Shown: positions 27,831-46,119 of the stretch, in pieces | Numbering within the stretch: the stretch's first letter is position 1 | How the letters are laid out: every line of letters starts with the position of its first letter | Origin: Bacteroidales bacterium | Lineage (GTDB): Bacteria > Bacteroidota > Bacteroidia > Bacteroidales > UBA932 | Assembly: GCA_017546125.1 (NCBI GenBank) | Contig: JAFYXO010000039.1 | Location: forward strand, 124,001 to 188,000 | DNA: 64,000 nt | Direction: 5' to 3' | Made by a program: the position numbers and the translations under genes | Notes under the pieces: generated by a model | What the model was told of the DNA's origin: nothing | The model's database searches: none | Seen by the model: the letters and a program-made list of their open reading frames with translations, nothing else

Positions 27831-27858
27831 AAAAAAAGAGCGCCCCGAAGAGCGCTCT
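27831..27858 (-). terminator. Terminator after the first SusC/SusD pair
   Basis: Read on the minus strand, AGAGCGC (27852-27858) and GCGCTCT (27837-27843) enclose a TCTTCGGG-type loop and are followed by seven T. It ends the susD transcript 30 bases after its stop. Confidence 0.9.
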
Positions 27859-27888
27859 TAATATTATATATATAAGGTATGACGGCTA

Positions 27889-29961
27889 TTACATAGTCTC
27901 ATCCCAGTCCCACCATACAGGAATTGCCCATACATCGAAGTCTGAAGCATTCTCAACACCGTAAGACTCGTATTGTTTTACAGAGTTGTTACACTCAGTA
28001 GCATTGTAACCAGTCTCGTGTGAGCAGTGCATCCAACGTCTTGGATAGTGACGGCCTTTTGCAGGGTTAGAATCGAATGTTGAAGAACCCATAGGTCTGT
28101 AAGCAGGGGTTTTCATACCCTCGTAAACTACACCGTAGCTACCTACAGTACCAGCACCATAGTTGTAACGACGAACGTCGTTCCAGTTTTGGTAGTCGAT
28201 ACCCATAGCGATAACTTTCTGCATCATGATGTCTGAAAGTGTAAGCTCACCAGATGATTGAGCTACAGCTGCACTTGCCATGTAAGCGTCGATGTCAGCT
28301 TGTGGAATAGGGCTGTATGCAAATGATACATCGAAACCACGAGCAGTTTTACCACAACCGATACCGGTCCAAGTGTTAAGTTTTTGGTTCATTTGAGCGA
28401 AGTGTTCACGGATAGCAGTTTTGTAAGCCTCAAAAGCACCACCTTTATCACCTTGACGGAATAGAACCTCAGCTTTGATGAAGTTCATCTCAGCAGCTGT
28501 ACAAATGTATGAATCTGAGTCAATACGTACATAGAATGAACCTGTACCTTGAACGAAACCAAGACGACGTGTGTCAGCTGATTTACCTGAATAGTAGCAG
28601 TTCATATCGTTAGAAGCTAGACCTTGAGTTTCGAATACACCGTCAGAACGAAGCTGTACGAATTTGATATCCTCTACATAAAGAGGGTTGTTATCGTTAA
28701 CGTACATAGCACCTGGTTTGTAAACAACTACTACGCTGTCAGCATGCTCAGTAACAGTTACGTTCTTATCTGTATAGTATTTGTCAAATACAGCAAGGAA
28801 TGCGTCAACATCCTTGTAGTATTTGGTGATGTTGGTAGTAGTGTAAACTTTCTTCACATCTGACATAGCCAAAGTCAAATAACCGTTAAGGTTACCTGAT
28901 ACCATACGGTTGTCTTTCCAGCCGTCGTAAGCATCGTAGATGTTTACACCTTCGTCAAGTAGCCATTCGTATTCAGTGATTCTGTCACCTTGTACGTCAA
29001 CTACAGCTTTGTACATAACTGAAGGAAGGATCTTCTCAGCACGTGGGTCCATTACACCTGAACCTTGGAAGTTGGTCAAAAGTTGGGCATACCATCTGTT
29101 GAATCTCTGACCGGTACCCCAAGCTGATGAGTCGTAAGTTACGTTTGGACCGTAAGCATCACCGATAGTGAAGTTGGTAGAAGCGGTCTCAACGTTGTAG
29201 TGTTTCATAGTGATATTCTCAGAAGTAGTCTGAGGAGCATTTTGCAATGCAGCAAGGATAGCAGCTGGATCATATTTAAGACCTTCTTTCTCAGTGGTAA
29301 CTTTTGACAAGTTGTTTAGCCAACGAGCTTTAAGACCGTAGCAAAGTTTGATCCATTTGTTAACATCACCACCATTCCAGATGTCACCTGCTGAAAGTGC
29401 AGGAGCACCATTCTCTTGAGGAGCTGAGAAAAGTTTGATAGCCTCTTCTAGGTCAGCAAGACTGCCGGCATACATAACCTCACCGTTATCGTATGAAGGG
29501 GTGAAGTCCTCACCTACAGCGTAAGTGTAAGGCATCTCACCATAAAGGTCAGCCATCATGATAGAACCCATAGCTTTAACTACAAGAGCAGCAGCTTTGT
29601 AGTGAGTTGCGCCATGCTCTTCAGCTTTAGCGATAAGGTCAGGAACGTTACATGCAGCACCAAGGAACCAGTTTTGGTAAACTGTAGTAGAAACGCCAGT
29701 GTCAGGATTCCAAAGAGCTTGTTCACCTACAGTAGCAGTTCTTGAAGTACCCATAAGTACGTGAGCGATAGCAGATGCACGGGTGTTAGCAGTACCCCAG
29801 GCATAGCCATAGTAGTATTGAATCCAAGGAAGTCTTACCTCTTCGGTAGCACTTTGGTTACTTGGACTATCAGGGTCGGTATTTACATTTAGCCACTCGC
29901 TACAAGACGAAACACCTAGTAGAAGTGCAAATGCCATTACGATGTATAATACTTTTTTCAT
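27889..29961 (-). CDS. SusD/RagB-like nutrient-binding lipoprotein (SusD-like_2 type)
   Basis: This is a surface lipoprotein that caps a SusC channel and binds the imported nutrient. From the ATG at 29961 it has 690 residues with signal MKKVLYIVMAFALLLGVSSC (lipobox cysteine at residue 20), then SEWLNVNTDPDSP, typical of the SusD-like_2 branch that pairs with SusC proteins of the ALGVKKERKALGYSV kind. It is longer than most members (about 500-550). It lies 19 bases after susC. The substrate is unknown; no glycosidase or sensor gene is next to it. Confidence 0.92.
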   Translation of the reverse strand: MKKVLYIVMAFALLLGVSSCSEWLNVNTDPDSPSNQSATEEVRLPWIQYYYGYAWGTANTRASAIAHVLMGTSRTATVGEQALWNPDTGVSTTVYQNWFLGAACNVPDLIAKAEEHGATHYKAAALVVKAMGSIMMADLYGEMPYTYAVGEDFTPSYDNGEVMYAGSLADLEEAIKLFSAPQENGAPALSAGDIWNGGDVNKWIKLCYGLKARWLNNLSKVTTEKEGLKYDPAAILAALQNAPQTTSENITMKHYNVETASTNFTIGDAYGPNVTYDSSAWGTGQRFNRWYAQLLTNFQGSGVMDPRAEKILPSVMYKAVVDVQGDRITEYEWLLDEGVNIYDAYDGWKDNRMVSGNLNGYLTLAMSDVKKVYTTTNITKYYKDVDAFLAVFDKYYTDKNVTVTEHADSVVVVYKPGAMYVNDNNPLYVEDIKFVQLRSDGVFETQGLASNDMNCYYSGKSADTRRLGFVQGTGSFYVRIDSDSYICTAAEMNFIKAEVLFRQGDKGGAFEAYKTAIREHFAQMNQKLNTWTGIGCGKTARGFDVSFAYSPIPQADIDAYMASAAVAQSSGELTLSDIMMQKVIAMGIDYQNWNDVRRYNYGAGTVGSYGVVYEGMKTPAYRPMGSSTFDSNPAKGRHYPRRWMHCSHETGYNATECNNSVKQYESYGVENASDFDVWAIPVWWDWDETM

Positions 29962-29980
29962 ATTGATGTCCATTTAATTT

Positions 29981-32900
29981 TTAGAAAGTTAGATTTAGAC
30001 CGAATGAGAAAGATCTTTGGCTAGGTACACCGCAATAGTCGATACCTACTGAACCAGATCCACCAGTACCAGAACCCATAGAAACCTCAGGGTCCATACC
30101 GCCAACATAGTTAGTTACATAGAACAAGTTGTTAGCAGTGAAAGTAGCCACTAGACCTTTAAGAACGTTTTGTCCTTTAAGAAGGTTAGTGAAGTCGTAT
30201 GATAGGTTGATGTTACGTAGTCTCAACCAGTTTACACTTTGTAGGAAGTTGTAAGCATTTGAGCTGTAGTTGCTCCAGTATTGTTGGATCATATATTCAC
30301 CAGAACGAACTGAACCGTTGATTTCGTATGACTCACCAGCTTTGTAAGTTACGGTCATAGGCTCCATAGTGTTGCAGTCAACACCTTCAAGAGTGATTTG
30401 AGTACGGTCAAGAGTTCTCATTGACTGACCGATTGAAGTCAAATAGTGTTGAGTACCGTTGTAGATGTCACCACCCATACGGAAGTCAAATAGGAATGAG
30501 AATGAAAGGTCTTTCCAACGGAAGTTTGAAGTCAAACCACCAATGAATTTAGGCTCACGGTTACCAACGATGTTGGTAGTGTTACCTTGAAGTTTGTAAA
30601 GACCAGTCTTAGGGTCGATTTGGTAGCGACCACCTTCAATCTCTTTAGTTACCTCTTTCATTTCGCCAGTAGTCTCATCAAGTTCCTCAACTTTATGAGT
30701 CTCTCTTAGCCAGTAGTTACCGGTCAAACCAAGGAAGTAACCACCATTAGGGATAGAAGCAGCTCTAACACCACCGATCTGAGCGTCAGTTACGTAGAAG
30801 TAGTCAACACCCTCAACGAAGTCACCAAGAGTACCACGGTTACCAGACATGTTCAATACAAGGTCCCAAGTAAAGTCTTTTGTATCAACAGGAGTACCGG
30901 TAATCATAAGCTCCATACCTTCATTCTTAACTGAACCAGAGTTGATGGTCAAGAAGATATAACCAGTTGATTGGCAAAGACGTGGAGCTGCAATCTGGTT
31001 ACCTGTTACTGAGTGATAGTAAGTATAGTCGATACCGAATCTACCGTTGAAGAATTTCAACTCTGTACCGATTTCCCATGAAGTTTGGATCTCTGGAAGA
31101 AGGTAAGGAGAACCACCGGTCCAGCTGTTACCTACACCTTGGAACTCACCGTTAACCACTTGGATACCCCATAGGTAAGTGTTGGTTGAGTAAGGAGAAG
31201 CATCTTTACCTACTTGAGCCCATGAACCACGAAGTTTACCGAAGGTTAGAACGTCGTTCTTAGGAAGGAACTCAGTAAACACAAGAGAACCTGATACAGA
31301 TGGATAGAAGTATGAGTTGTTACCTACTGGAAGAGTAGATGACCAGTCATTACGTCCGGTAACTGTCAAATAGATCAAGTTCTTCCAAGAAGCGCGAACC
31401 TCACCGTAAACACCAACAAGGCGTTTTAGAGAAGTGCTCTCATTGAAGAATTTGTTTTGGTCAAGGATGTTCTCGAAAGAGATAGTACCAGGAACTGCGA
31501 ATTCCCAACCCCATTGGCCGTGGCGAACACGTTGGGTTTGTTCGGTAGCAGTACCTACAAGAGCGTTAACATCGAAATCTCCCCAAGTTTTGTGGAAGTT
31601 AAGCATCAAGTTAGTGTTGAAGTAGTTGTAGTCAACTTTAGATTTGCTCAAACGGCCACCTTGGTATTTTTCGCTTACGTTACCACCTGGAGCGATGTAA
31701 GTGTATGAATCGTTGGTGTATGAGTCAACACCCATACGGTAGTTAAGATCCAACCAGTCAGTAAATTTGATACCTGCGTTAACAGCACCTGTGATACGCT
31801 CGTTCTTGTCGGTCATCTTGTTTTTGTTGATGATCCAGTAAGGGTTTTCGATTTCATCTTCAAGAACGTGGTTAGGGAACATACGGTATTTGGTACCGTC
31901 TTCGTTGATCCAGTGAGACATATTCTCACTTCTTGACCAGCCGTAAAGAGCGGTCATAGTACCGTTACCACCACCTTGGTATAGACCAGCAGATGTCAAA
32001 GTTTTTTGGGTATTGGCTACAGAGTAAGATACGTTAGCACCTACAGTCAGCCAGTTACCTACTTTTTGTTCACCGTTGAAACGGAAAGTAGTTTTGTCAT
32101 AACCTGTACCTTGGATGTTACCTTGTTGGTCGAAGCGAGAAGCTGAAAGGTAGAAGTTACCATTTTTGTGACCACCTGCTACGCTGAAGCTGTTGTCGAA
32201 TACGTTAGAAGCTTGGAAGAAGTCTTTAACGTTGTCATATTTAGGACCGTTGTTAACAGCACCCCAAGAAGAAGTGATAAGGTCTGTTTGAAGGGTACCG
32301 TTCATATCGTAAGAACCTCTACCGTATACATCTTGGATTTCAGGAGTTGAGTTAGCTACTGAATAAGTGTATTTAGATGAGAAGTTAACTTTAACAGAAC
32401 CGTCAGTAGAACCTTTTTTGGTAGTGATCACGATAACACCGTCAGCTGCACGTGAACCATAAAGAGCGGCAGCAGCAGCACCTTTAAGTACTGACATGCT
32501 CTCAACGTCCTCAGGGTTGATGTCCATAACACGGTTAGAGAAAGTGGTTGAAGAGGTGCTCACACCATCAGTACCTGTGTTACCACCGTTAACAGTCGAG
32601 TTGTCATAGATGATACCGTCAACTACGAACAAAGGCTGGTTGTCACGAGACTCAGAAGCAGAGTTACCACCACGGATAACGATAGAAGAACCGGCACCTG
32701 CAGCACCACCTGATTGGGTGATGTTAACACCGGCAACTTTACCTGCCAAAGAGTTTACAACGTTGGTTTGTTTGTTTCTCAATAGTTCAGTAGATTTCAT
32801 CTCTGTAACAGAGTAACCAAGAGCTTTTCTCTCTTTCTTAACGCCAAGTGCTGTAACAACTACGTCATCAAGCAAAAGGGCGTCGTCTTCCATTACAACG

Positions 32901-33199
32901 TCAATCACTGCTCTACCTGCAACTTCAACGGTAGCATCTTTATACCCCATAGAGGTAAACACCAACTTAGCTGTAGAGGGTGCAGTCAGTGCATATGCTC
33001 CGTCAAGATCAGTCGATGTACCGATTGTGGTGTTTTCTACAAGAACGTAAACACCTACGATTGGTTCACCAGACTTGTCTGTTACCTTACCGGTAACATT
33101 GATGTCCTGTGCCCAAGCACTTCCGATCGAGAAGCAAAGAGCACACATAGCAAGAGCTGCATTACGCAACGCTTTACTTAGTCTTTTTGAAACGAACAT
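29981..33199 (-). CDS. SusC/RagA TonB-linked outer-membrane transporter (locus 1)
   Basis: This is a TonB-dependent outer-membrane channel of the SusC type, 1072 residues. In order: signal peptide (to AWAQ, about residue 31); carboxypeptidase-D-like N-terminal domain (NVTGKVTDKSGEPIVGVYVLV); TonB-box region DDVVVTALG; plug domain (VAGVNITQSGG, GSSIVIRGGNS, PLFVVDG); and a barrel ending RSFSFGLNLTF. The first 36 bases are identical to those of the second SusC gene at 36066. Its leader contains one copy of the 15-base palindrome shared with the recombinase locus. Confidence 0.95.
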   Translation of the reverse strand: MFVSKRLSKALRNAALAMCALCFSIGSAWAQDINVTGKVTDKSGEPIVGVYVLVENTTIGTSTDLDGAYALTAPSTAKLVFTSMGYKDATVEVAGRAVIDVVMEDDALLLDDVVVTALGVKKERKALGYSVTEMKSTELLRNKQTNVVNSLAGKVAGVNITQSGGAAGAGSSIVIRGGNSASESRDNQPLFVVDGIIYDNSTVNGGNTGTDGVSTSSTTFSNRVMDINPEDVESMSVLKGAAAAALYGSRAADGVIVITTKKGSTDGSVKVNFSSKYTYSVANSTPEIQDVYGRGSYDMNGTLQTDLITSSWGAVNNGPKYDNVKDFFQASNVFDNSFSVAGGHKNGNFYLSASRFDQQGNIQGTGYDKTTFRFNGEQKVGNWLTVGANVSYSVANTQKTLTSAGLYQGGGNGTMTALYGWSRSENMSHWINEDGTKYRMFPNHVLEDEIENPYWIINKNKMTDKNERITGAVNAGIKFTDWLDLNYRMGVDSYTNDSYTYIAPGGNVSEKYQGGRLSKSKVDYNYFNTNLMLNFHKTWGDFDVNALVGTATEQTQRVRHGQWGWEFAVPGTISFENILDQNKFFNESTSLKRLVGVYGEVRASWKNLIYLTVTGRNDWSSTLPVGNNSYFYPSVSGSLVFTEFLPKNDVLTFGKLRGSWAQVGKDASPYSTNTYLWGIQVVNGEFQGVGNSWTGGSPYLLPEIQTSWEIGTELKFFNGRFGIDYTYYHSVTGNQIAAPRLCQSTGYIFLTINSGSVKNEGMELMITGTPVDTKDFTWDLVLNMSGNRGTLGDFVEGVDYFYVTDAQIGGVRAASIPNGGYFLGLTGNYWLRETHKVEELDETTGEMKEVTKEIEGGRYQIDPKTGLYKLQGNTTNIVGNREPKFIGGLTSNFRWKDLSFSFLFDFRMGGDIYNGTQHYLTSIGQSMRTLDRTQITLEGVDCNTMEPMTVTYKAGESYEINGSVRSGEYMIQQYWSNYSSNAYNFLQSVNWLRLRNINLSYDFTNLLKGQNVLKGLVATFTANNLFYVTNYVGGMDPEVSMGSGTGGSGSVGIDYCGVPSQRSFSFGLNLTF

Positions 33200-33257
33200 A
33201 AATGAATTTTTTGGGTTAATAAATAAGTTATAATTTAGTTTAGTATTTAGTCGTTAA

Positions 33258-33272
33258 TCTCTGATTAAGAGA
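33258..33272 (-). repeat. Recombination-site-like palindrome, copy A (leader of SusC 1)
   Basis: TCTCTTAATCAGAGA read on the minus strand: arms TCTCT/AGAGA around an asymmetric TAATC centre. It lies 58 bases upstream of the susC ATG, between promoter and gene. It is in the same orientation as copy B, 89 bases away, and inverted relative to copy C. Confidence 0.75.
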
Positions 33273-33289
33273 GGGACACAAATAATCGG

Positions 33290-33320
33290 CAAATATAGTA
33301 TAATTTCTCAAATTCCATAA
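33290..33320 (-). promoter_or_regulatory. Probable promoter of SusC 1
   Basis: On the minus strand a good -7 TATATTTG is at 33290-33297. At the 19-base distance the -33 position reads TTAT (33317-33320), a poor match; a TTTG at 33309-33312 is too close. It lies between site copies A and B. Confidence 0.5.
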
Positions 33321-33343
33321 TATATAGGTATTTTTTTTAAATT

Positions 33344-34348
33344 TTATCTCTGATTAAGAGAGTGAATTACTAACCTGTTCGCATCATCTATGCTCTTCTG
33401 CTCGATTGACGAGAGATATATTTGAGTAGTTTTTTCTGACGTATGACCCATACATTCGCTTATTGTAGAAACAGGAACTCCACCCCTTCTGGCCATTGTC
33501 GCCCAAGTATGCCTTGCCACATAAGTGGTGACAGGGGGGTCCAATGAGAGCAATTCCGATATCTTCAGCAAACTATTGTTCAGGTTTTTAAGAGAGGTGT
33601 TGTATTTAACTGATTTTAACCTTTTTTCTAAAATTGGAAAAACATAATCCGAACTCATATCATTAGAATATTTGTCAATAATATTTTGAATACATGGCTC
33701 TATCCTTATCCTGATCAGTTGCCCTGTTTTACGCCTGCAATACCTTATCTCCCCCTTGACAATATTCTCTCTCTTCAAATATGCTATGTCCACGAAAGAC
33801 ATCCCACGGGTATAAAAACTGAACATGAATATATCCCGGGCAAAACACAAGCGTCTCGGAAGCTCTATCTGATTGATTTTAACCAGCTCTTCAGAAGTAA
33901 GAGCCCTTTTTCGTGTCCGGCAGACTCCGGTAAAGACAGTTCTGAACGGATCGCTGAAAGAGAAATACAAACCCTCATCAATCCCTTGATGATAATGAGA
34001 CCGAAGGATTCTCATGTAGAACGAAGTGGTATTAGGGGAGAGATACCGGCTCTTCATATCCTTCTCAAATAGGACAAGCAACTCCCCAGTAATATCCTCA
34101 AAGAAAAGCTCCCCATCTTTCAACAGGTTACTCCTCTTGAGAAAATCACAAAAAACCTTCAACGTCACATTCAGCTTGGTTGCGGCACTACTACGAGCCG
34201 TATTTCGATAGACATCTATCTTCCTCTGAAGATAGCCAATAAAAGAGATGCCCGATTTTATTCGAGCATCTCCTAATAAAACATTCTGAGACATATATGC
34301 CTGCAGAAATTGAAAAAACTGTTCTGATTGTTTTTTTGATTTATACAT
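33344..34348 (-). CDS. Tyrosine site-specific recombinase (phage-integrase family)
   Basis: The 334-residue protein has an N-terminal SAM-like core-binding domain (about residues 20-150) and a C-terminal catalytic domain. Catalytic residues are visible: arginine in FYTRGMSFVDIAYL, lysine likely in CRRKTGQ, histidine-arginine box YVARHTWATMARR, MGHTSEKTT, and nucleophile tyrosine in QIYLSS. It resembles the Bacteroides invertases that control surface genes. The ATG at 34348 was chosen over an upstream TTG. The last codons (SLNQR and stop) coincide with palindrome copy B. It lies 43 bases downstream of the aminopeptidase gene, behind a hairpin that touches its start. Confidence 0.92.
   Translation of the reverse strand: MYKSKKQSEQFFQFLQAYMSQNVLLGDARIKSGISFIGYLQRKIDVYRNTARSSAATKLNVTLKVFCDFLKRSNLLKDGELFFEDITGELLVLFEKDMKSRYLSPNTTSFYMRILRSHYHQGIDEGLYFSFSDPFRTVFTGVCRTRKRALTSEELVKINQIELPRRLCFARDIFMFSFYTRGMSFVDIAYLKRENIVKGEIRYCRRKTGQLIRIRIEPCIQNIIDKYSNDMSSDYVFPILEKRLKSVKYNTSLKNLNNSLLKISELLSLDPPVTTYVARHTWATMARRGGVPVSTISECMGHTSEKTTQIYLSSIEQKSIDDANRLVIHSLNQR
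33347..33361 (-). repeat. Recombination-site-like palindrome, copy B (end of recombinase gene)
   Basis: The same TCTCTTAATCAGAGA on the minus strand, extended to 17 identical bases with copy A (CTCTCTTAATCAGAGAT). It encodes the final SLNQR of the recombinase and abuts its stop codon. Confidence 0.75.
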
Positions 34349-34383
34349 AGCTACTTTGGTTTTAAACAGACACAAAGTAGCTA
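34348..34383. repeat. 11-base inverted repeat at the recombinase start
   Basis: TAGCTACTTTG (34348-34358) and CAAAGTAGCTA (34373-34383) match perfectly around a 14-base spacer. The proximal arm reaches the first base of the recombinase ATG, so a hairpin would hide the translation start. The distal arm ends 9 bases from the aminopeptidase stop codon. An operator for autoregulation is the alternative. Confidence 0.75.
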
Positions 34384-34391
34384 CTATCTGA

Positions 34392-35789
34392 CTATTTCGC
34401 CATCTCTTTTTCTACCTCTTCCACCGAAATCGGAAGTCTCTTTTCTCCCAACAGGCGGCAGCCGTCATCGGTAATGAGAATATCATCCTCCAATCGGATT
34501 CCTCCGAATGTATAATAATCTTTAAGTTTTTCAAAATTAACAAATTGGGCATTGGTACCCTCGCGTTTCCTTTGCTCAATCAGAGCAGGGATAAAATAGA
34601 TTCCAGGCTCCACTGTTACCACGTGCCCTTTCTCGAGCATCTTGCCCATCCTCAACGAGCCGAGTCCGAACTGGGCAGAGCGCTTGATGGTATCATCGTA
34701 ACCGACATAGTTCTCACCCAAATCCTCCATATCATGGACATCCATACCCATATTGTGACCAAGGCCGTGAGGCATAAACAATGCGTGCGCACCGGCAGCC
34801 ACAATCTCCTCAGTATCACCCTTAAGCAGCCCCAAATCTTTAAGCCCCTGGGCCAGAACTTTAGCCGATGCAAGGTGAACCTCAGTATAGGTTTTGCCCG
34901 GACGGGCAATGTCTATCGCCAGATTATTGGCCGCTGCCACAATATTGTAGATCTCCTTCTGCTGCTGGGTAAATTTACCCGAAGCTGGGAGAGTTCTGGT
35001 GAAATCGGAGGTGTAATTTGAATTTGTCTCAGCACCCGCATCTATAACCACCAAACGACCTTCGGTCAATATCTGGTGGTGCGAATGGTTGTGGAGTGTC
35101 TCACCATTCTGCGAAAGGATAATAGGGAACGAAGGCATCAGCCCCTCTGAGATGGAGATCCCCTCCATAACACCGACAAGCTCCTGCTCCACCATACCCA
35201 ATTTCATCATCTTCATCGCAGTATAGTGCATCTTGTAGCCGATATTGCAAGCCTTTTCTATCTCTGCCACCTCACAATCCTCCTTGATAAGTCTCAATGC
35301 CACCACTGCTTTAATGAACTCCACCGAAGCTTTACTTTTCATCTTGTCGAATGGAATTCCCAACATGGCGTTGAGCTGGATCATATTGTGATACCTGTAA
35401 GGGGGCAAAAAGTGAACTTTTCTCCCACCCTGGAGAGCTTTTGACACATAATCACCCAACTGCGAGAGCTTCTCCGTCGCAGTTACACCCACCTTTTCCG
35501 CCTTGTCCTTCAATAGTGGCTGGGGACCCATCCATATAATATCATCTATATCCACATCATTGCCGAATATCACCTCTTGTCCTGACTCCAAATCTATGAT
35601 AGCAGCCAGATCAGGATCCGTGAGACCGAAAAAATAGTTAAAATTACTGTCCTGACGGAACCTGTACTGGTTTCCGGGATAGTTTACCGCAGCCTCGCTA
35701 TTTCCCAAAAAGAGGAGAATACCCTTGGCATCACCAAGCTTGGACACCAAAGCCGCTCTTCTATTGATATATACACTCTTTGCAAACAT
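34392..35789 (-). CDS. pepP: Xaa-Pro aminopeptidase (M24B, PepP type)
   Basis: This cytosolic metallopeptidase removes an N-terminal residue before proline. The 465 residues include the aminopeptidase P N-terminal domain (about 1-150) and the pita-bread domain. All five metal ligands are found: VVIDAGAETNSNYTSDFTR (two Asp), MPHGLGHNMGMDVHD (His), VVTVEPGIYF (Glu) and GGIRLEDDILI (Glu). It sits between the two opposing SusC genes, inside the segment bounded by palindrome copies A/B and C, probably cotranscribed with the recombinase. Confidence 0.95.
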   Translation of the reverse strand: MFAKSVYINRRAALVSKLGDAKGILLFLGNSEAAVNYPGNQYRFRQDSNFNYFFGLTDPDLAAIIDLESGQEVIFGNDVDIDDIIWMGPQPLLKDKAEKVGVTATEKLSQLGDYVSKALQGGRKVHFLPPYRYHNMIQLNAMLGIPFDKMKSKASVEFIKAVVALRLIKEDCEVAEIEKACNIGYKMHYTAMKMMKLGMVEQELVGVMEGISISEGLMPSFPIILSQNGETLHNHSHHQILTEGRLVVIDAGAETNSNYTSDFTRTLPASGKFTQQQKEIYNIVAAANNLAIDIARPGKTYTEVHLASAKVLAQGLKDLGLLKGDTEEIVAAGAHALFMPHGLGHNMGMDVHDMEDLGENYVGYDDTIKRSAQFGLGSLRMGKMLEKGHVVTVEPGIYFIPALIEQRKREGTNAQFVNFEKLKDYYTFGGIRLEDDILITDDGCRLLGEKRLPISVEEVEKEMAK

Positions 35790-35871
35790 CTTTATAATTT
35801 TTAGTTAATTTTTTCAAAAATGGCAAAAATGTAAGTGAAATGCAAATAGGAGGGACAATTTGTACTAAAAA

Positions 35872-35902
35872 TTTGTTTTTTCAGGGATATATGGTAACTT
35901 TG
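35872..35902 (+). promoter_or_regulatory. Consensus promoter of SusC 2
   Basis: TTTG (35872-35875), exactly 19 bases, and TAACTTTG (35895-35902): a complete match to the Bacteroidota promoter. It gives a leader of about 160 bases before the susC ATG. Confidence 0.82.
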
Positions 35903-35907
35903 CATGA

Positions 35908-35966
35908 CGTTCAAATTTGTACAAACACGCTTTTTAAATGTTAAAAACATGTTAATTATTTGAACG
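35908..35966 (+). promoter_or_regulatory. Structured leader element of SusC 2
   Basis: CGTTCAAAT (35908-35916) and ATTTGAACG (35958-35966) form a perfect 9-base stem that would close the 5' part of the transcript. Within it, ATGTT and AACAT can form a smaller hairpin around 35938-35950. No counterpart is present in the SusC 1 leader. Confidence 0.55.
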
Positions 35967-35989
35967 CCAAGCGGTTACAGAAATTTCCG

Positions 35990-36004
35990 TCTCTTAATCA
36001 GAGA
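35990..36004 (+). repeat. Recombination-site-like palindrome, copy C (leader of SusC 2)
   Basis: TCTCTTAATCAGAGA on the plus strand, 61 bases before the susC ATG, the same position relative to the gene as copy A. Together A and C form inverted sites about 2.73 kb apart. After it the leader shares ACTAAATACTAAACTA (36020-36035) and TATAACTTATTTATTAACC with the SusC 1 leader. Confidence 0.75.
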
Positions 36005-36065
36005 CAGAAAGATATGACAACTAAATACTAAACTATAACTTATTTATTAACCTAAAATTTCATTT

Positions 36066-39000
36066 ATGTTCGTTTCAAAAAGACTAAGTAAAGCGTTGCG
36101 TTTTGCAGCTCTTACTATGTGTGCTCTTTTCCTTACAGTAGGAAATGCTTTCGCACAGAACATTACTGTTACCGGTAAGGTGACAGACAAGTCTGGCGAG
36201 CCTATCGTAGGTGCTTATGTAATCGTACAGGGTACTTCGAATGGTGCTTCTACAGATCTTGATGGTGCTTACTCACTAAACGCACCAGCTAATGGCGTAT
36301 TGGAGTTCTCATCTTTGGGTTATGAGACTGTATCTGTTCCTGTAAACAGCAGATCAGTTATCGACGTAACTCTTGCTGATGATGCTCTTATGCTTCAAGA
36401 AACTGTTGTTGTCGGTTACGGCACACAAAAGAAAGAAAACTTGACCGGTGCTGTAGCAAGCATCAACACTTCAAAACAATTGGAGAGCCGTCCTATCGCC
36501 GATATCGGTCGTGGTCTACAAGGTGCTACTCCTGGTTTGAACGTACGTATCGGTAACGCCGAGGTTGGTTCTGACCCTGTTATGAAGATTCGTGGTCAAG
36601 TAGGTTCTTCAGAAGGTGGTTCATCTCCACTTATCCTTATGGACAACGTTGAGATCCCTTCTATCAACCTTATCAACCCTGATGACATCGAGTCTATCTC
36701 TATCTTGAAAGACGCTGCTTCTGCTTCTATCTATGGTGCAAAAGCTGCATTCGGTGTTATTTTGATCTCTACAAAAAAAGGTAACAAAGAGTCTGAGAGA
36801 ATCAACGTTACTTACTCTGGTAACATGGCATTCCAGAATATGGCTCAAAACTACGAGGTTGCCGGTTCAGAAGGTCTTCACTATACTGTAGAAGCTGCTG
36901 AGCGTGTTGGTACTTATACCCCTACCGGTGCATTCTGGCTAATCGACCGCGCTGGTTACAACGCTTCTAAAGCTTGGGAACAAAAATATGCAAACCTTGA
37001 TCCTGATTCACCTTTCACTTATGGTCGTGACTGGTATGTAGACGCATCTAACAGAAAAATCGGTGTTCGTACATTCAACCCTTACAACTACCTGGTTAGA
37101 AAGAACGCTCCTACACAAACTCACAACCTTAACGTAGCAGGTAGCAAAGGCAACACCAACTTCAACATCTCTCTTGGTTATCTTGACCAAACAGGTATGA
37201 TGAAGACTACCGACTATGACAAATTCTCTCGTTACAACGCAAACGTACGCGTTAGCACCAAGATCAACGACTGGTTGACAGTTCGCTCTGGTTTGATGTA
37301 CTCAAAAACTGAGAAAAACTGGTCATATGCAACCAACTCTACTACAGCTGATATTTGGTACTATGTATATCGTTGGGGACCTACCTATCCACTTGTTAAA
37401 CAGGATGAGTATGGCAACAACCTTAGAAATGCCACTTATGAGACATCTGTTGGTAACAAAGCTTCTAGAGTTAATGCTTACACCAGCGCTAACGTAGGTA
37501 CAACTATCACCCCTGTGAAGAACTGGAATATCGATTTCGATTATACTTATGCAAACAGCACAATCAACTATCTATATCCAGGTACACGTCTAACCGCAGG
37601 TGACACTTGGTCAGCAGCTCTTAACTATGAAGATGAAAATGGTGTACAACCAAACGTTAACAACGAATGGGCACAATACAACCTTCTTGGTTCTTCTATC
37701 CCTGCTAAAGTTCTTAACTGCTACACCTATACTTCAGAAACTGCTACCCTTAACTCTATCTATCAGGACTCTTACACAAGTGAGAGAAACACCTACAATG
37801 CAACCACTACTTACGACCTAAATATCAAGGATGCTCACAAAATGAGATTTATGCTTGGTATGAACGCCGTATCATATGTTGAAACAGGTGTTTGGGGTAG
37901 AAAAATCGGTCTTTTGGATTACTCTAACCCTCAATTTGACCTTGCTACCGGTACTCAAACATCAGGTGGTGGACACTCTTGGAATTCACAACTTGGTTTC
38001 TTCGGCCGTTTGAACTACAACTTCAAAGAGAGATATCTAATCGAGGCTAACATCCGTTATGACGGTTCATCTAAATTCCCTACCGACCTACAATGGAGAT
38101 GGTTCCCTTCATTCTCTGCTGGTTGGAGAGTTTCAGAAGAGCCTTGGATGCAAGGTATCAAACACGTGATCAGCGGTTTGAAACTTCGTGGTTCATGGGG
38201 TTCTGTGGGTGACCAATCAGTAGGTAGCTCACTTTATATCCCTACAATGAGCCTTAACAACTCTACTTGGATCCACAACGGTGCAAAAGATACTTACTAT
38301 TCAACTCCTGCAGCTGTATCATCAAGCATCACTTGGCAAGATATCCAAACTCTTGACCTTGGTCTTGATTTGACATTGTTCAACGAACTTAACGTAACTT
38401 TCGACTGGTATCGTCGTGACACCAAAAACATGATCGTTCCTGCAGAGGGTCTTGGTATCGGTTATGGTACTACAGCTCCTAAAGGCAACTACGGTTCATT
38501 GAGAACTCACGGTTGGGAGGTTGCTATCAACTACGGTCACATGTTTGACAATGGTTTCAGCCTATCTGCTACTGCTACTCTTGCTGACGCAGTATCTACT
38601 ATCACTGAGTATGGTCAAGCTACCGGTATCAGCGGTTGGTACAATGGCAAAACCTACGGTGAGATCTGGGGTTTCCAAGTTGACAGACTATACCAAAACG
38701 AAGATTTCGCTCGTGATGCTAACGGTAATCTAATAGAAATCAAAACTAAAGATGGTTACAAAGCATATCAACAAGTAGATCCTAACGCTCCTACCCAAGG
38801 TTATTTGAACTCAGGTTCATTGATCTTCGGCCCTGGTGACGTTAAATATAAAGACCTTAACGGTGACGGCGTTATCGACAAAGGTACCCAAAGTATCAGA
38901 GATGCAGAAGGCAACCCTGACCATGGTGACTTGACAGTTATCGGTAACACTACTCCTCGTTACGAGTACTCATTCAGAGTAGATATGGAGTGGCATGGTG

Positions 39001-39512
39001 TTGACCTAGGTATCTTCTTCCAAGGTGTTGGTAAACGTGATATGTGGGGTTCTTCATCATTGACTCTTCCTGGTTTCAACTCATCAGATGGATCTATGGC
39101 TGCATCATTTGCTAATGACTTCTGGTATGAAACTATCGAAAATGGTCAAGTAGTAGACTCTAACTACGATGCATTCTATCCTCGTGCTGCAAACTGCAGC
39201 GGTAGCAGCATCTTCAACATGCAAGTGAACGATAGATATCTATTGAACATGGCATACTTGAGACTTAAAAACGTAACTCTTGGTTATACCTTCCCTGCAA
39301 AATGGATGAACAAGGCTAATATCCAAAAACTACGTCTTTACGTTTCACTTGAGAACTTCCTAACCTTCGACCACCTTAACGGTCTTCCTGTTGACCCTGA
39401 GGTAATGCCTGGTGTATCATTCTACAACTCAAGCAACTACAACAGCGGTAGAGCAGCTCTTGGTACTCCTGCATTCAAAACTGCTTCATTCGGTCTTCAA
39501 ATTACATTCTAA
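36066..39512 (+). CDS. SusC/RagA TonB-linked outer-membrane transporter (locus 2)
   Basis: This SusC-type channel has 1148 residues: signal peptide to AFAQ (about residue 31), carboxypeptidase-D-like domain (TVTGKVTDKSGEPIVGAYVIV), TonB-box region QETVVVGYGTQKKENLTGAV, plug (ATPGLNVRIGN, DPVMKIRGQVG), and a large barrel ending KTASFGLQITF. The signal sequence is nearly the same as in locus 1, but the barrel and plug are clearly different, so the two transporters should carry different ligands. A consensus promoter and structured leader precede it. Confidence 0.95.
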   Translation: MFVSKRLSKALRFAALTMCALFLTVGNAFAQNITVTGKVTDKSGEPIVGAYVIVQGTSNGASTDLDGAYSLNAPANGVLEFSSLGYETVSVPVNSRSVIDVTLADDALMLQETVVVGYGTQKKENLTGAVASINTSKQLESRPIADIGRGLQGATPGLNVRIGNAEVGSDPVMKIRGQVGSSEGGSSPLILMDNVEIPSINLINPDDIESISILKDAASASIYGAKAAFGVILISTKKGNKESERINVTYSGNMAFQNMAQNYEVAGSEGLHYTVEAAERVGTYTPTGAFWLIDRAGYNASKAWEQKYANLDPDSPFTYGRDWYVDASNRKIGVRTFNPYNYLVRKNAPTQTHNLNVAGSKGNTNFNISLGYLDQTGMMKTTDYDKFSRYNANVRVSTKINDWLTVRSGLMYSKTEKNWSYATNSTTADIWYYVYRWGPTYPLVKQDEYGNNLRNATYETSVGNKASRVNAYTSANVGTTITPVKNWNIDFDYTYANSTINYLYPGTRLTAGDTWSAALNYEDENGVQPNVNNEWAQYNLLGSSIPAKVLNCYTYTSETATLNSIYQDSYTSERNTYNATTTYDLNIKDAHKMRFMLGMNAVSYVETGVWGRKIGLLDYSNPQFDLATGTQTSGGGHSWNSQLGFFGRLNYNFKERYLIEANIRYDGSSKFPTDLQWRWFPSFSAGWRVSEEPWMQGIKHVISGLKLRGSWGSVGDQSVGSSLYIPTMSLNNSTWIHNGAKDTYYSTPAAVSSSITWQDIQTLDLGLDLTLFNELNVTFDWYRRDTKNMIVPAEGLGIGYGTTAPKGNYGSLRTHGWEVAINYGHMFDNGFSLSATATLADAVSTITEYGQATGISGWYNGKTYGEIWGFQVDRLYQNEDFARDANGNLIEIKTKDGYKAYQQVDPNAPTQGYLNSGSLIFGPGDVKYKDLNGDGVIDKGTQSIRDAEGNPDHGDLTVIGNTTPRYEYSFRVDMEWHGVDLGIFFQGVGKRDMWGSSSLTLPGFNSSDGSMAASFANDFWYETIENGQVVDSNYDAFYPRAANCSGSSIFNMQVNDRYLLNMAYLRLKNVTLGYTFPAKWMNKANIQKLRLYVSLENFLTFDHLNGLPVDPEVMPGVSFYNSSNYNSGRAALGTPAFKTASFGLQITF

Positions 39513-39531
39513 TCAGTAAATGTACATTAGC

Positions 39532-41451
39532 ATGAAAAAACTATTTAATATTTTGATGTCGCTTACACTTGTTATCGCTCTAACAGGTTGTAATTTCTTG
39601 GACAGAAAATCAAAGACACAAATGAATAACGAAAACTACTGGACTAGTGAAGCAAATATTCGTTTGTTTGTCAATGGTGCGTATGATAACTACTTCGCTG
39701 GTTATGATACCAGCTGGGGCCAAGTATTTGCACCTGGTGTATACTCATCAGGTGAGTTCAGTGATGATGCTTCTATGACTGGTCAGCAAACTAACCCTCG
39801 TACAAGCATTCCAGATGACAACTGGTACCGTAACGAAGGTTCTAACTGGCTATTCCGCACTGGTGGTGGTCCTTGGAACTTCGGTTGGATCCGCAAATGG
39901 AATATCCTTATGGATAGACTTGATATGATGAAAGAACAAGGTAATATCGAAGAACAGGCTTACAACCACTGGTATGGTGTAGCTCGTTTCTTCAGAGGTT
40001 ATGAGTACTATCGTCTTGTTGTATCATTCGGTGACGTTCCTTGGTATGAAGACGAAGTTGGTTCAGAGGATCTTGCTATGCAGTTCAAACAAAGAGATTC
40101 ACGTGTAACTGTTATGACAAACGCTAAAGCTGACTTCGAGTACGCTTTGGAGAATGTTAGAGAAAACGACGGTGAAGACTATGTAAACAAATATGTAGTG
40201 GCTGCTGTAGCTTCTCGTGCTATGCTTTTCGAAGGTACTTGGGAGAAATACCACGATGTAGCTGGTGCTAACTCTAAAATGTTCCTTGACGCTGCTGTTA
40301 CATTTGCTGACTTCGTAATGAGCTCTGGCAAATTCGCATTCGATACTGACTTCCGTACCCTATTCGGTTCAGAGACCAAGAAAGGTAATGAGATCATCCT
40401 TTATCGTGGTTACAGCGCAGAACTTGGTATCACCCACTGTATCGCTTCATATGCTAACCTTGATGAGAACCAAACAAGCTCAGCTAACTTGGCATTCCTA
40501 AAATCAGTTATCTGTAATGACGGTAAACCTTACCAGGTATCAGCAACAGCTAATGCATCAAGCTTTGATTTGAAAGATATGGTTGTAACCCGTGACCCTC
40601 GTTTCGAGGCTACTTTCTGGCACCAACCAACTCAAAACCAAACTTCAGTATATTGCGTTAAATTCATCGATAGAGAAGGTCCTACTTACGGTTACAATGG
40701 CCAAACCCGTCCTGCTAAATATGGTTCTATGACCAACACCAACGGTTTCCCTGTACTTCGTTATGCTGAGGTAGTTCTTAACTGGATCGAGGCTAAAGCT
40801 GAGAGAGGTGACGCGATTACCGATGCTGACCTTAACAAATCTATCAACGCTATCCGTACAAGACCTCTTGACGCAGAAGCTATTGCTAAAGGTGTGAAAC
40901 AAACTGCACCTCTAACTATGGCAATGGTTAACGCTGACAGCGACCCTCTACGTACTTCTGCTGCTATCCAAGCTACTCACGCTGGTGCATGTTCTCCTAT
41001 CCTTTGGGAGATCCGTCGTGAGCGCCGTATGGAGTTCTTCATGGAGCAACACCGCGTTATCGACATCCGTCGTTGGGGCTGGTTGGAGCTTATGAACGCT
41101 TCTGTTAACCCAGATTTGAAATATGGTTGCTGGATGGACTTCAACACTACTAAAAACAACCTTAAATCATATGACCTTCTTAAAGCTTCTAACTTCGGTG
41201 TAGTAGGTGTAATGAAGGAAGATGGTACTGTTGTAATGTTTAACGGTACAGCTGATGCAGATGGTAACATCCTAACATCAAATGCTGCTGAAATGGTAGG
41301 TTACAGAGTAGTTCAAAACTTCAAAGATAGAGTGACTATGGAATACAAACACTATCTTGAGCCTATCTGTAATGATATCGTTAACGAGTACAAACAGAAG
41401 AATACTGAGTTCCCTGAGATTCTTCCAATCCAACAGAACCCAGGTTGGTAG
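39532..41451 (+). CDS. SusD/RagB family lipoprotein (locus 2)
   Basis: This is the surface-exposed nutrient-binding partner of the SusC at 36066, 639 residues from the ATG at 39532 (an ATG at 39520 is also possible). It has the lipoprotein signal MKKLFNILMSLTLVIALTGC and then NFLDRKSKTQMNNENYWTSE, the classical SusD start; TPR-like helices follow, and the conserved end ILWEIRRERRMEFFMEQHRVIDIRRW is present. It belongs to the main SusD branch, unlike its counterpart in locus 1. Confidence 0.95.
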   Translation: MKKLFNILMSLTLVIALTGCNFLDRKSKTQMNNENYWTSEANIRLFVNGAYDNYFAGYDTSWGQVFAPGVYSSGEFSDDASMTGQQTNPRTSIPDDNWYRNEGSNWLFRTGGGPWNFGWIRKWNILMDRLDMMKEQGNIEEQAYNHWYGVARFFRGYEYYRLVVSFGDVPWYEDEVGSEDLAMQFKQRDSRVTVMTNAKADFEYALENVRENDGEDYVNKYVVAAVASRAMLFEGTWEKYHDVAGANSKMFLDAAVTFADFVMSSGKFAFDTDFRTLFGSETKKGNEIILYRGYSAELGITHCIASYANLDENQTSSANLAFLKSVICNDGKPYQVSATANASSFDLKDMVVTRDPRFEATFWHQPTQNQTSVYCVKFIDREGPTYGYNGQTRPAKYGSMTNTNGFPVLRYAEVVLNWIEAKAERGDAITDADLNKSINAIRTRPLDAEAIAKGVKQTAPLTMAMVNADSDPLRTSAAIQATHAGACSPILWEIRRERRMEFFMEQHRVIDIRRWGWLELMNASVNPDLKYGCWMDFNTTKNNLKSYDLLKASNFGVVGVMKEDGTVVMFNGTADADGNILTSNAAEMVGYRVVQNFKDRVTMEYKHYLEPICNDIVNEYKQKNTEFPEILPIQQNPGW

Positions 41452-44054: not shown

Positions 44055-46112
44055 CTACTCTTTACACCATTGGTCAAGCCAGTCATAGAAGACTCTGTTC
44101 CAGTGAATAGAGTTCTGTGGCTTAAGTATCCAGTGATTTTCATCCGGGAAGAGCAACATCTTGGAAGGAACTCCCATCATCTGAGCTGCATTGAACGCTG
44201 CCATACCTTGCTCTACAGGTACACGGTAGTCCATCTCACCATGTGTGATAAGGATAGGTGTGTCCCACTCTTTAATAAGTTTGTGAGGTGAATTTGAGTA
44301 GTGTCTCTTCGCTACAGGGTTATTGTCCCAAGGTGCACCACCATTGTCCCAATGAGGGAACCACATCTCCTCTGTCATCATATACATCTGCTCCTGATTG
44401 AAGATACCTGCATGCGAAACAAATGCTGAGAAGGTATTTTTGTGGATACCTGCAAGGTAATAGATAGAGTAACCACCATAACTTGCACCCACTGCCGCCA
44501 CTTTACCTACATATGGCTCTTTTTTCATCTCCTTAACAGATACCAGATAGTCCTGCATATTCTTACCGATGTAGTCTCCTGAAATCTGGTCACACCACTC
44601 CTGACCAAAGGCTGTGGTACCACGACGGTTAGGTAGGATTACGATATAGCCTTGTGATGCCATAAGTTTGTAATTCCAGCGAGTAGAGAAACCCTGGCTG
44701 ATGGTACCTTGAGGACCACCAAGGCAGAATAGGATAGCCGGATATTTCTTGTTGGGATCAAACTCAGGTGGATATACTACCCAAGTGTGCATTTTCTTAT
44801 TGTCCACTGTGGTAATCCACCTCTCTTCGATGGTTACATCTTTCACCTTATCCAAAATCTCATCATTCTCGTGTGTCAATTGCTCGAAAGAGCCGTCTGC
44901 TATAGAGACTGAAACGATCTCATTAGGGCGATGCATACAGCGGTTGGTGGTGATGAATTTGTCCCCTACCACTTTTACACCGTCGAAGTCGAACCATGCG
45001 TCCTCAGCAGTGATTCTCTTCACCTTGCCTTGAAGGTCGATTTCAAAGATACCTTGAAGCGCATTTACAAGAGAAGTGAAGTAGAAACCTGAACCGTCCT
45101 CTTTCCATACAGGGCTTGACACATTGTATTTGAAATCAACAGTAAGCTCACTCTTCTCTCCTGTAGCAACATCGATTACAAAAAGTCTTTGCTTGTCTGC
45201 CTCAAATCCACCTCTACGCATGCTGATCCATGCGATTTTCTTTCCATCAGGGGAGAATAGAGGATCTGTATCGTAGCCAGGCATACCCTCAGTGAGGTTT
45301 TTGCAGCTCTTGGTGGCGATATCATAAAGATAGATATCTGTGTTGGTAGAGTAGGCGTAATCTATACCGGTCAACTTGCGGCAAGAGTAAGCGATGCTCT
45401 TTCCGTCAGGACTCCAGCTCAGCTGCTCAAGACCTCCAAATGGGAGTGTTGGGAGTTCATATGGTGCTCCATCAAGGATATCCATACCCTCACCTATCCC
45501 TTTCATGGAGAAAGATGCGATATATGTGTGAGGAATAGTCTCTACGAAGTGGTCCCAGTGACGATACATAAGACCGGTGATGGTTCTACCTGTGGATTTG
45601 TCCATATCAGGGTAGTCATCGGTTGGTTTGATTGCAGATTTCACTTGTGATACATACATCACTTGCTTGCCGTCCGGTGAGAATTCAAAACCCTCCACTC
45701 CACCATCTACAGATGAGATTTTGAGAGGAGCGCCACCATTTTTGATGTTCCACACATGGATCTGGCCACCCATAATAAACGCCACATTTTCGTCATCTAT
45801 CCAGCGTGCATTGCTGGCACTCTTGGCAAAATGTGATATCTGACGGTTATCAGTACCATCCACATTCATAAGGAACAGGTGGCGTTGCCCCTTGTTTAGG
45901 GCAAGGTCGGTATAGGTAACCCCATATAGAACCTTGTCACCTGCAGGTGATATTTGCAAATCGGAGATCTTACCGAGCTGGTGCATGACCTCAGGGGTGA
46001 ACTTACCATCCACCACCTCCACTTCATGCTTCTCGATAGTGGGAGCCTTAGGCTCCTGAGAACAGCTTGTCATCATAGCTAACGCTGCTAAAAATAGTAT
46101 ACCTTTTTTCAT
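44055..46112 (-). CDS. S9 family prolyl-oligopeptidase-type lipoprotein (DPP-like)
   Basis: This exported serine peptidase is likely to cut di- or oligopeptides for uptake. The 685 residues begin with a lipoprotein signal (MMTSCS, cysteine near residue 18), then a beta-propeller (repeated SPDGK blades) and an alpha/beta-hydrolase domain. The catalytic triad is visible: serine in GASYGGYS, aspartate in GEMDYRVP, histidine in DENHWI. It resembles dipeptidyl peptidase 5/acylaminoacyl peptidases. It lies 7 bases after another S9 gene, forming a tandem pair. Confidence 0.9.
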   Translation of the reverse strand: MKKGILFLAALAMMTSCSQEPKAPTIEKHEVEVVDGKFTPEVMHQLGKISDLQISPAGDKVLYGVTYTDLALNKGQRHLFLMNVDGTDNRQISHFAKSASNARWIDDENVAFIMGGQIHVWNIKNGGAPLKISSVDGGVEGFEFSPDGKQVMYVSQVKSAIKPTDDYPDMDKSTGRTITGLMYRHWDHFVETIPHTYIASFSMKGIGEGMDILDGAPYELPTLPFGGLEQLSWSPDGKSIAYSCRKLTGIDYAYSTNTDIYLYDIATKSCKNLTEGMPGYDTDPLFSPDGKKIAWISMRRGGFEADKQRLFVIDVATGEKSELTVDFKYNVSSPVWKEDGSGFYFTSLVNALQGIFEIDLQGKVKRITAEDAWFDFDGVKVVGDKFITTNRCMHRPNEIVSVSIADGSFEQLTHENDEILDKVKDVTIEERWITTVDNKKMHTWVVYPPEFDPNKKYPAILFCLGGPQGTISQGFSTRWNYKLMASQGYIVILPNRRGTTAFGQEWCDQISGDYIGKNMQDYLVSVKEMKKEPYVGKVAAVGASYGGYSIYYLAGIHKNTFSAFVSHAGIFNQEQMYMMTEEMWFPHWDNGGAPWDNNPVAKRHYSNSPHKLIKEWDTPILITHGEMDYRVPVEQGMAAFNAAQMMGVPSKMLLFPDENHWILKPQNSIHWNRVFYDWLDQWCKE

Positions 46113-46119
46113 ATTGTGT

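Follow-up and report, generated by a model that had tools for sequence, protein, structure and literature searches.

In Bacteroides fragilis, the recombinase Tsr0667 inverts SusC/SusD clusters and is reported to act on many distant regions (PMC4747536). For the B. fragilis SusC/SusD (RagA/RagB) intergenic shufflons, which include region EE, repeats are described that span the start codon of susC and follow an invertible promoter (PMC5729914). In PVR loci of B. intestinalis, TonB-transporter/SusD clusters with a dedicated recombinase gene at their flank undergo large inversions (PMC8375218). In the vpma/Xer1 system of Mycoplasma agalactiae, each surface-protein gene has a recombination site in its 5′ untranslated region and inversion links a gene to the promoter (PMC2268961).

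We analyzed a 64,000-nucleotide stretch of DNA (the window) from the 1.86 Mb genome of an uncultured gut Bacteroidales bacterium (G000) and compared its candidate SusC/SusD switch with each of these systems. Like the B. fragilis shufflons, the locus combines a tyrosine recombinase, short repeats near susC starts and alternative susC/susD pairs that would be brought under a promoter. In contrast to the repeats over the B. fragilis susC start codon, the present leader sites stand 58–61 bp before the start codons, a further site forms the end of the recombinase gene, and the aminopeptidase gene pepP is part of the promoter segment. Whereas Tsr0667 is reported to act on many distant regions, the present site is confined to one locus in its genome. 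The B. intestinalis PVR loci likewise place a local recombinase beside invertible importer clusters, but here the recombinase is inside the invertible segment together with a metabolic gene, in a comparison of gene layout. The vpma system shares a tyrosine recombinase gene within the locus and sites in 5′ untranslated regions, yet it belongs to an unrelated organism and gene family and uses one unique promoter where we find two promoter-like elements, making it an analogue and not a member of the same class. Inversion of SusC/SusD loci beside a recombinase gene has precedents, so the present locus represents a variant of a familiar kind of system. The initial annotation noted that the layout looks distinct from that of B. 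fragilis. The locus differs from the known systems in its recombinase and site family, in having a third site within the gene of the recombinase and in its capture of pepP, but not in inversion beside a recombinase as such.

The locus comprises two divergent operons placed back-to-back, SusC1/SusD1 and SusC2/SusD2, each with a SusC gene (ATG at 33199 and 36066, respectively) followed by a SusD gene, and the recombinase gene and pepP lie between them (Table 1). The recombinase is 334 amino acids long from its ATG, or 343 amino acids from a TTG at 34375. pepP falls within the invertible interval immediately upstream of the recombinase gene, and because the recombinase start is less than 50 bp from the pepP stop, the two genes likely form one operon.

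Table 1. Features of the SusC/SusD locus in window coordinates.
Feature	Position	Strand	Basis or remark
SusD1 lipoprotein	27889..29973	-	Pfam SusD-like_2 / SusD-like
SusC1, TonB-dependent SusC/RagA-family importer	29981..33199	-	TIGR04056, 637.6 bits
Site A TCTCTTAATCAGAGA, SusC1 leader	33258..33272	-	Exact match; G001 synteny stops at the final base of A, 33272
74-bp P1 cassette separating A from B, TATATTTG aimed at SusC1	33273..33346	-	-7 motif alone
Tyrosine recombinase	33344..34348	-	Pfam Phage_integrase (PF00589) + Phage_int_SAM_5 (PF13102)
Site B, final five recombinase codons (SLNQR)	33347..33361	-	Exact match; equivalent place in G001 ortholog
pepP, M24 Xaa-Pro aminopeptidase (aminopeptidase P)	34392..35789	-	Pfam AMP_N + Peptidase_M24
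P2, promoter-like TTTG-N19-TAACTTTG next to pepP, pointing towards site C and SusC2	35872..35902	+	Motif kept in G000, G001, G002
Site C, SusC2 leader	35990..36004	+	Exact match; G001 synteny resumes, in opposite orientation, at 35990
SusC2, TonB-dependent SusC/RagA-family importer	36066..39512	+	TIGR04056, 780 bits
SusD2 lipoprotein	39520..41451	+	Pfam SusD_RagB / SusD-like_3

Site A lies 58 bases from the SusC1 ATG and site C, in inverted orientation, 61 bases from the SusC2 ATG, in agreement with the coordinates, orientation and spacing of the palindrome in the initial annotation. We searched the whole genome for TCTCTTAATCAGAGA and found exactly three exact copies, all at this locus, with no further copies at up to one mismatch beyond A, B and C and no copies of a reversed-pattern control. 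The asymmetric centre TAATC of the palindrome defines an orientation for each site, such that A and B are direct repeats and C is inverted relative to both; the reverse complement of the site reads TCTCT-GATTA-AGAGA. The interval between sites A and C is 2717 bp, and site C is embedded in a longer near-palindrome (35984–36010). Among 119 relatives, the exact 15-mer occurs only in the same-genus genome G001 (four copies) and in G023 (one copy).

A palindrome that precedes both SusC ATGs by a fixed distance could also be an mRNA leader or operator element of the SusC genes, such as an attenuator or regulator site, unrelated to recombination. The longer palindrome at site C scores as terminator-like on the minus strand and a related palindrome persists in the sister species G002, as such an element would have it. 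We nevertheless regard this explanation as highly improbable: the leaders of the other two full-length SusC genes in the genome (L066 and L067) lack the palindrome, copy B sits at the 3′ end of the recombinase gene with no SusC gene directly after it, Rfam contains no matching family, and palindromes of this family accompany recombinase genes at other loci. The initial annotation had reasoned that a plain leader motif would precede the majority of SusC genes, even those remote from a recombinase, and the L066 and L067 leaders show no such pattern; within the genus, the palindrome is restricted to MFVSKRLSKAL-type SusC genes at the present locus. Two general assignments, a SusC leader motif and an Rfam element, were rejected on these same searches.

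The gene between the two SusC sites encodes a tyrosine recombinase, as the initial annotation held and the Pfam domains confirm. The protein has the hallmarks of the phage integrase family, with a catalytic domain containing R, K, R, H and the tyrosine nucleophile, and residues R190, K216, R288, H311 and Y320 (343-amino-acid numbering) are conserved in at least 91% of 56 aligned relatives. Residue Y285 occupies the position of the first histidine of HxxR in XerD-type enzymes. We examined 56 loci of related recombinases, drawn from a scan of public genomes and excluding G001, in a window from 60 bp before to 500 bp after the recombinase stop codon, and found TCTCT-N5-AGAGA at 22 of these loci, with at least two copies at 13; the rest of the same loci contains 4 occurrences in 719 kb, equivalent to 0.003 expected per locus window. 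Many of these palindromes form inverted pairs 180–330 bp apart, and the genes that follow, named by inspection, include UpxY/NusG-like and DUF3575-like outer-membrane proteins. Since the palindrome accompanies related recombinases at loci without SusC, the motif is tied to the enzyme independently of SusC genes. The present locus fits this inverton group in the form of its sites and in the placement of site B at the recombinase 3′ end.

Like the UpxY-like capsule or fimbria-like invertons (L087, L092, L098, L105–L111), the locus carries a homologous recombinase (37–47% identity) with TCTCT-N5-AGAGA 3′ of its gene, but those promoter invertons span 180–330 bp before one operon whereas here kilobase segments would flip between two or three SusC/SusD operons. 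Outside the genus, we found no SusC-linked recombinase orthologs among 57 loci except at L112, where a SusC gene lies ~4 kb from the recombinase. A recombinase group otherwise found beside capsule-type and fimbria-type promoter invertons is now linked to SusC/SusD switching, and this link shows that one type of enzyme and site can serve in a different setting. Apparent promoter invertons of 180–330 bp, bounded by TCTCT-N5-AGAGA, lie 3′ of the recombinase at L087, L092, L098, L105, L106, L111, L117 and L134, and adjoin UpxY/NusG-like or outer-membrane protein genes; this recombinase-plus-site group lends itself to a catalogue spanning Bacteroidales. Genome G098 harbors inverton-like pairs of TCTCTTAATAAGAGA palindromes at non-SusC genes (L063 8040–8228 and L064 6319–6523; 174 and 190 bp apart), one pair inverted and one direct, and encodes a 40% identical recombinase elsewhere in the genome, a possible trans-acting inverton set.

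Comparison with sister species, each represented by one assembly, reveals rearrangement at the sites. The same-genus genome G001 (JAFVQD010000003.1, RGIG5293, sheep colon) encodes orthologs of the recombinase (65% identical), SusC1 (93%), SusC2 (97% over the N-terminal 260 amino acids) and pepP (85%), and contains four exact sites; all seven sites across the two genomes are identical although the site flanks differ. The outer flanks are collinear with the window on the reversed G001 contig, while window segments 27831–33272 and 33343–35958 run opposite to these flanks; alignment with the right flank picks up again at 35990. The second segment begins beside site B, and the inverted block consists of SusD1–SusC1–recombinase–pepP. 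Of the four ends internal to the alignment, three fall no more than 4 bp from a site, with a probability of 1e-7 for three under a rough, post hoc uniform null. The coincidence of species synteny breaks with sites, together with the palindrome beside genes of the recombinase's own family, supports the DNA-inversion switch proposed in the initial annotation. The alignments demonstrate site-specific rearrangement at these sites during species divergence. Because the orientation differences lie between species, they could be old events rather than ongoing switching. G001 carries an additional SusC/SusD pair facing the pepP 5′ end and its history thus involves more than inversions; in this genome the recombinase and its site are joined straight to the SusC1 leader, and a 68-bp site-flanked cassette lies on the other side. 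The recombinase is far more diverged between G000 and G001 (window 33344–34375 compared with L062 11996–13015) than its neighbors pepP and SusC (93–97%), while the site is unchanged.

RecA-type homologous recombination would also produce inverted blocks if it acted between the leaders and N-terminal coding regions of the two SusC genes, which resemble each other in inverted orientation, with the 15-mer just a conserved part of the leader. A stretch of 273 nt is common to the two SusC 5′ regions at 77% identity, with leader stretches at ~94% in inverted orientation, and in G002 SusC1 has a SusC2-typical N-terminus that resembles gene conversion. However, the block boundaries coincide with the 15-mers and thus lie upstream of the homologous leader stretches; SusC1 in G001 retains its own leader and N-terminus; site B is identical despite an absence of leader homology on the recombinase coding side; and the recombinase family has the palindrome elsewhere without SusC. 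We judge this route distinctly unlikely.

A local shufflon-type DNA-inversion switch that allocates promoters to SusC/SusD operons is very probably the best explanation of the locus. It shares with described SusC/SusD inversion systems its susC/susD pairs, short inverted upstream sites and rearranged orders in related genomes; the shortness of the core palindrome is a point against this reading. The tyrosine recombinase would act on all three 15-bp sites, and recombination between the oppositely oriented sites A and C or B and C would invert the segment with P2, pepP and the recombinase, with the A × C inversion additionally carrying the P1 cassette. Since the sites lie between the promoters and the SusC start codons, inversion would reassign promoters to both operons. 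With three sites instead of two, both inversions count and four arrangements are possible, which we derived by in silico recombination. In the observed state S0, P1 would drive SusC1 and P2 would drive SusC2; in S1 (B × C), both would face SusC1 and none SusC2; in S2 (A × C), P1 and P2 would be exchanged between SusC1 and SusC2; and in S3, none would face SusC1 and both would face SusC2. The promoter exchange through A × C inversion envisaged in the initial annotation corresponds to the 2717-bp interval and to state S2, and is now one of four arrangements that site B makes available. The G001 promoter pattern equals predicted state S3, with both elements before the outward SusC gene and none before the other two. 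The recombinase reading frame stays intact in all four states, since a stop follows the site by at most nine codons in each leader. Recombination of the direct pair A × B would release an 89-bp circle containing the cassette. The assembly of G000 contains no alternative junctions because only three sites exist.

Both promoter-like elements fall inside the invertible interval. Bacteroidales promoters have a −33/−7 consensus, which P2 matches, and a TAnnTTTG with upstream TTTG occupies the equivalent place in G000, G001 and G002, in G002 before SusC1. From this motif we infer that P2 is an active promoter. P1 is a probable promoter, with a −7 motif that arises by chance in 6.5% of shuffles of the P1 cassette and in 19% for the G001 cassette, making it weaker than P2. 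Homology of the G000 and G001 cassettes was unsupported (1040 of 2000 shuffles score equally well), and P1 therefore rests solely on its −7 motif. In the observed state a promoter-like element precedes both SusC genes, and the switch thus need not be strictly either/or. A more elaborate three-site scheme is tentative: the small promoter cassette and the larger promoter–pepP–recombinase segment might move independently, giving promoter doses of 1/1, 2/0 and 0/2, with the pepP–recombinase operon always within the flipping DNA and a three-operon selector in one sister species.

A second same-genus genome, G002, lacks an ortholog of the recombinase (best match 37%) and provides a natural control. 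Its gene order is left flank, SusD1–SusC1, leader, pepP and right flank (SusC1 92%, pepP 85% identical), and SusC2/SusD2 are absent from this locus. G002 pepP is opposite in orientation to that of G000, and relative to the flanks the orientation in G000 differs from both G001 and G002. At the site position, the G002 SusC1 leader carries a degenerate TCTCTTGTTTAGAGG, four changes from the site. The site is thus exact in the two genomes with the recombinase (G000 and G001) and decayed in the one that lacks it (G002). The G002 SusC1 gene (L168, 4386 onward) encodes a protein whose N-terminus (RFAALTMCA) is of SusC2 type and whose body is of SusC1 type, which suggests gene conversion between SusC 5′ ends.

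Each assembly contains a single orientation, as would be seen if the switch were now frozen and its once-working sites were species-level relics fixed in one orientation. We consider a frozen switch unlikely, since seven identical sites in two species whose recombinases share only 65% identity, together with a catalytic reading frame that has stayed open, point to ongoing selection, and the site has decayed in G002, where the recombinase ortholog is absent. There are accordingly strong signs in the genomes that the switch function has been maintained, and we infer that the recombinase acts on the sites today and that importer expression is phase-variable. The gene orders suggest that SusC1–P2–pepP was the ancestral arrangement. 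The recombinase and SusC2/SusD2 would then have been gained beside pepP, giving a switch that assigned P2 to one importer or the other through two sites; the cassette and the third site would have been added later. The state of G002 may reflect ancestral lack or secondary loss of the recombinase, as one enzyme-free genome fits both.

If active, the switch would let a cell change which importer is made and would extend phase variation of importers to a Bacteroidales genus of the ruminant gut that is uncultured and has a small genome. With three identical sites and a local recombinase, the locus is compact and well marked for direct tests of promoter allocation among importers. Two prolyl-oligopeptidase (S9) family genes lie near the SusC/SusD pairs and pepP (window 44055–48990), and glycosidases are absent among the locus neighbors scanned. 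This gene content suggests that the cargo may be peptide, as for RagAB, more than glycan.
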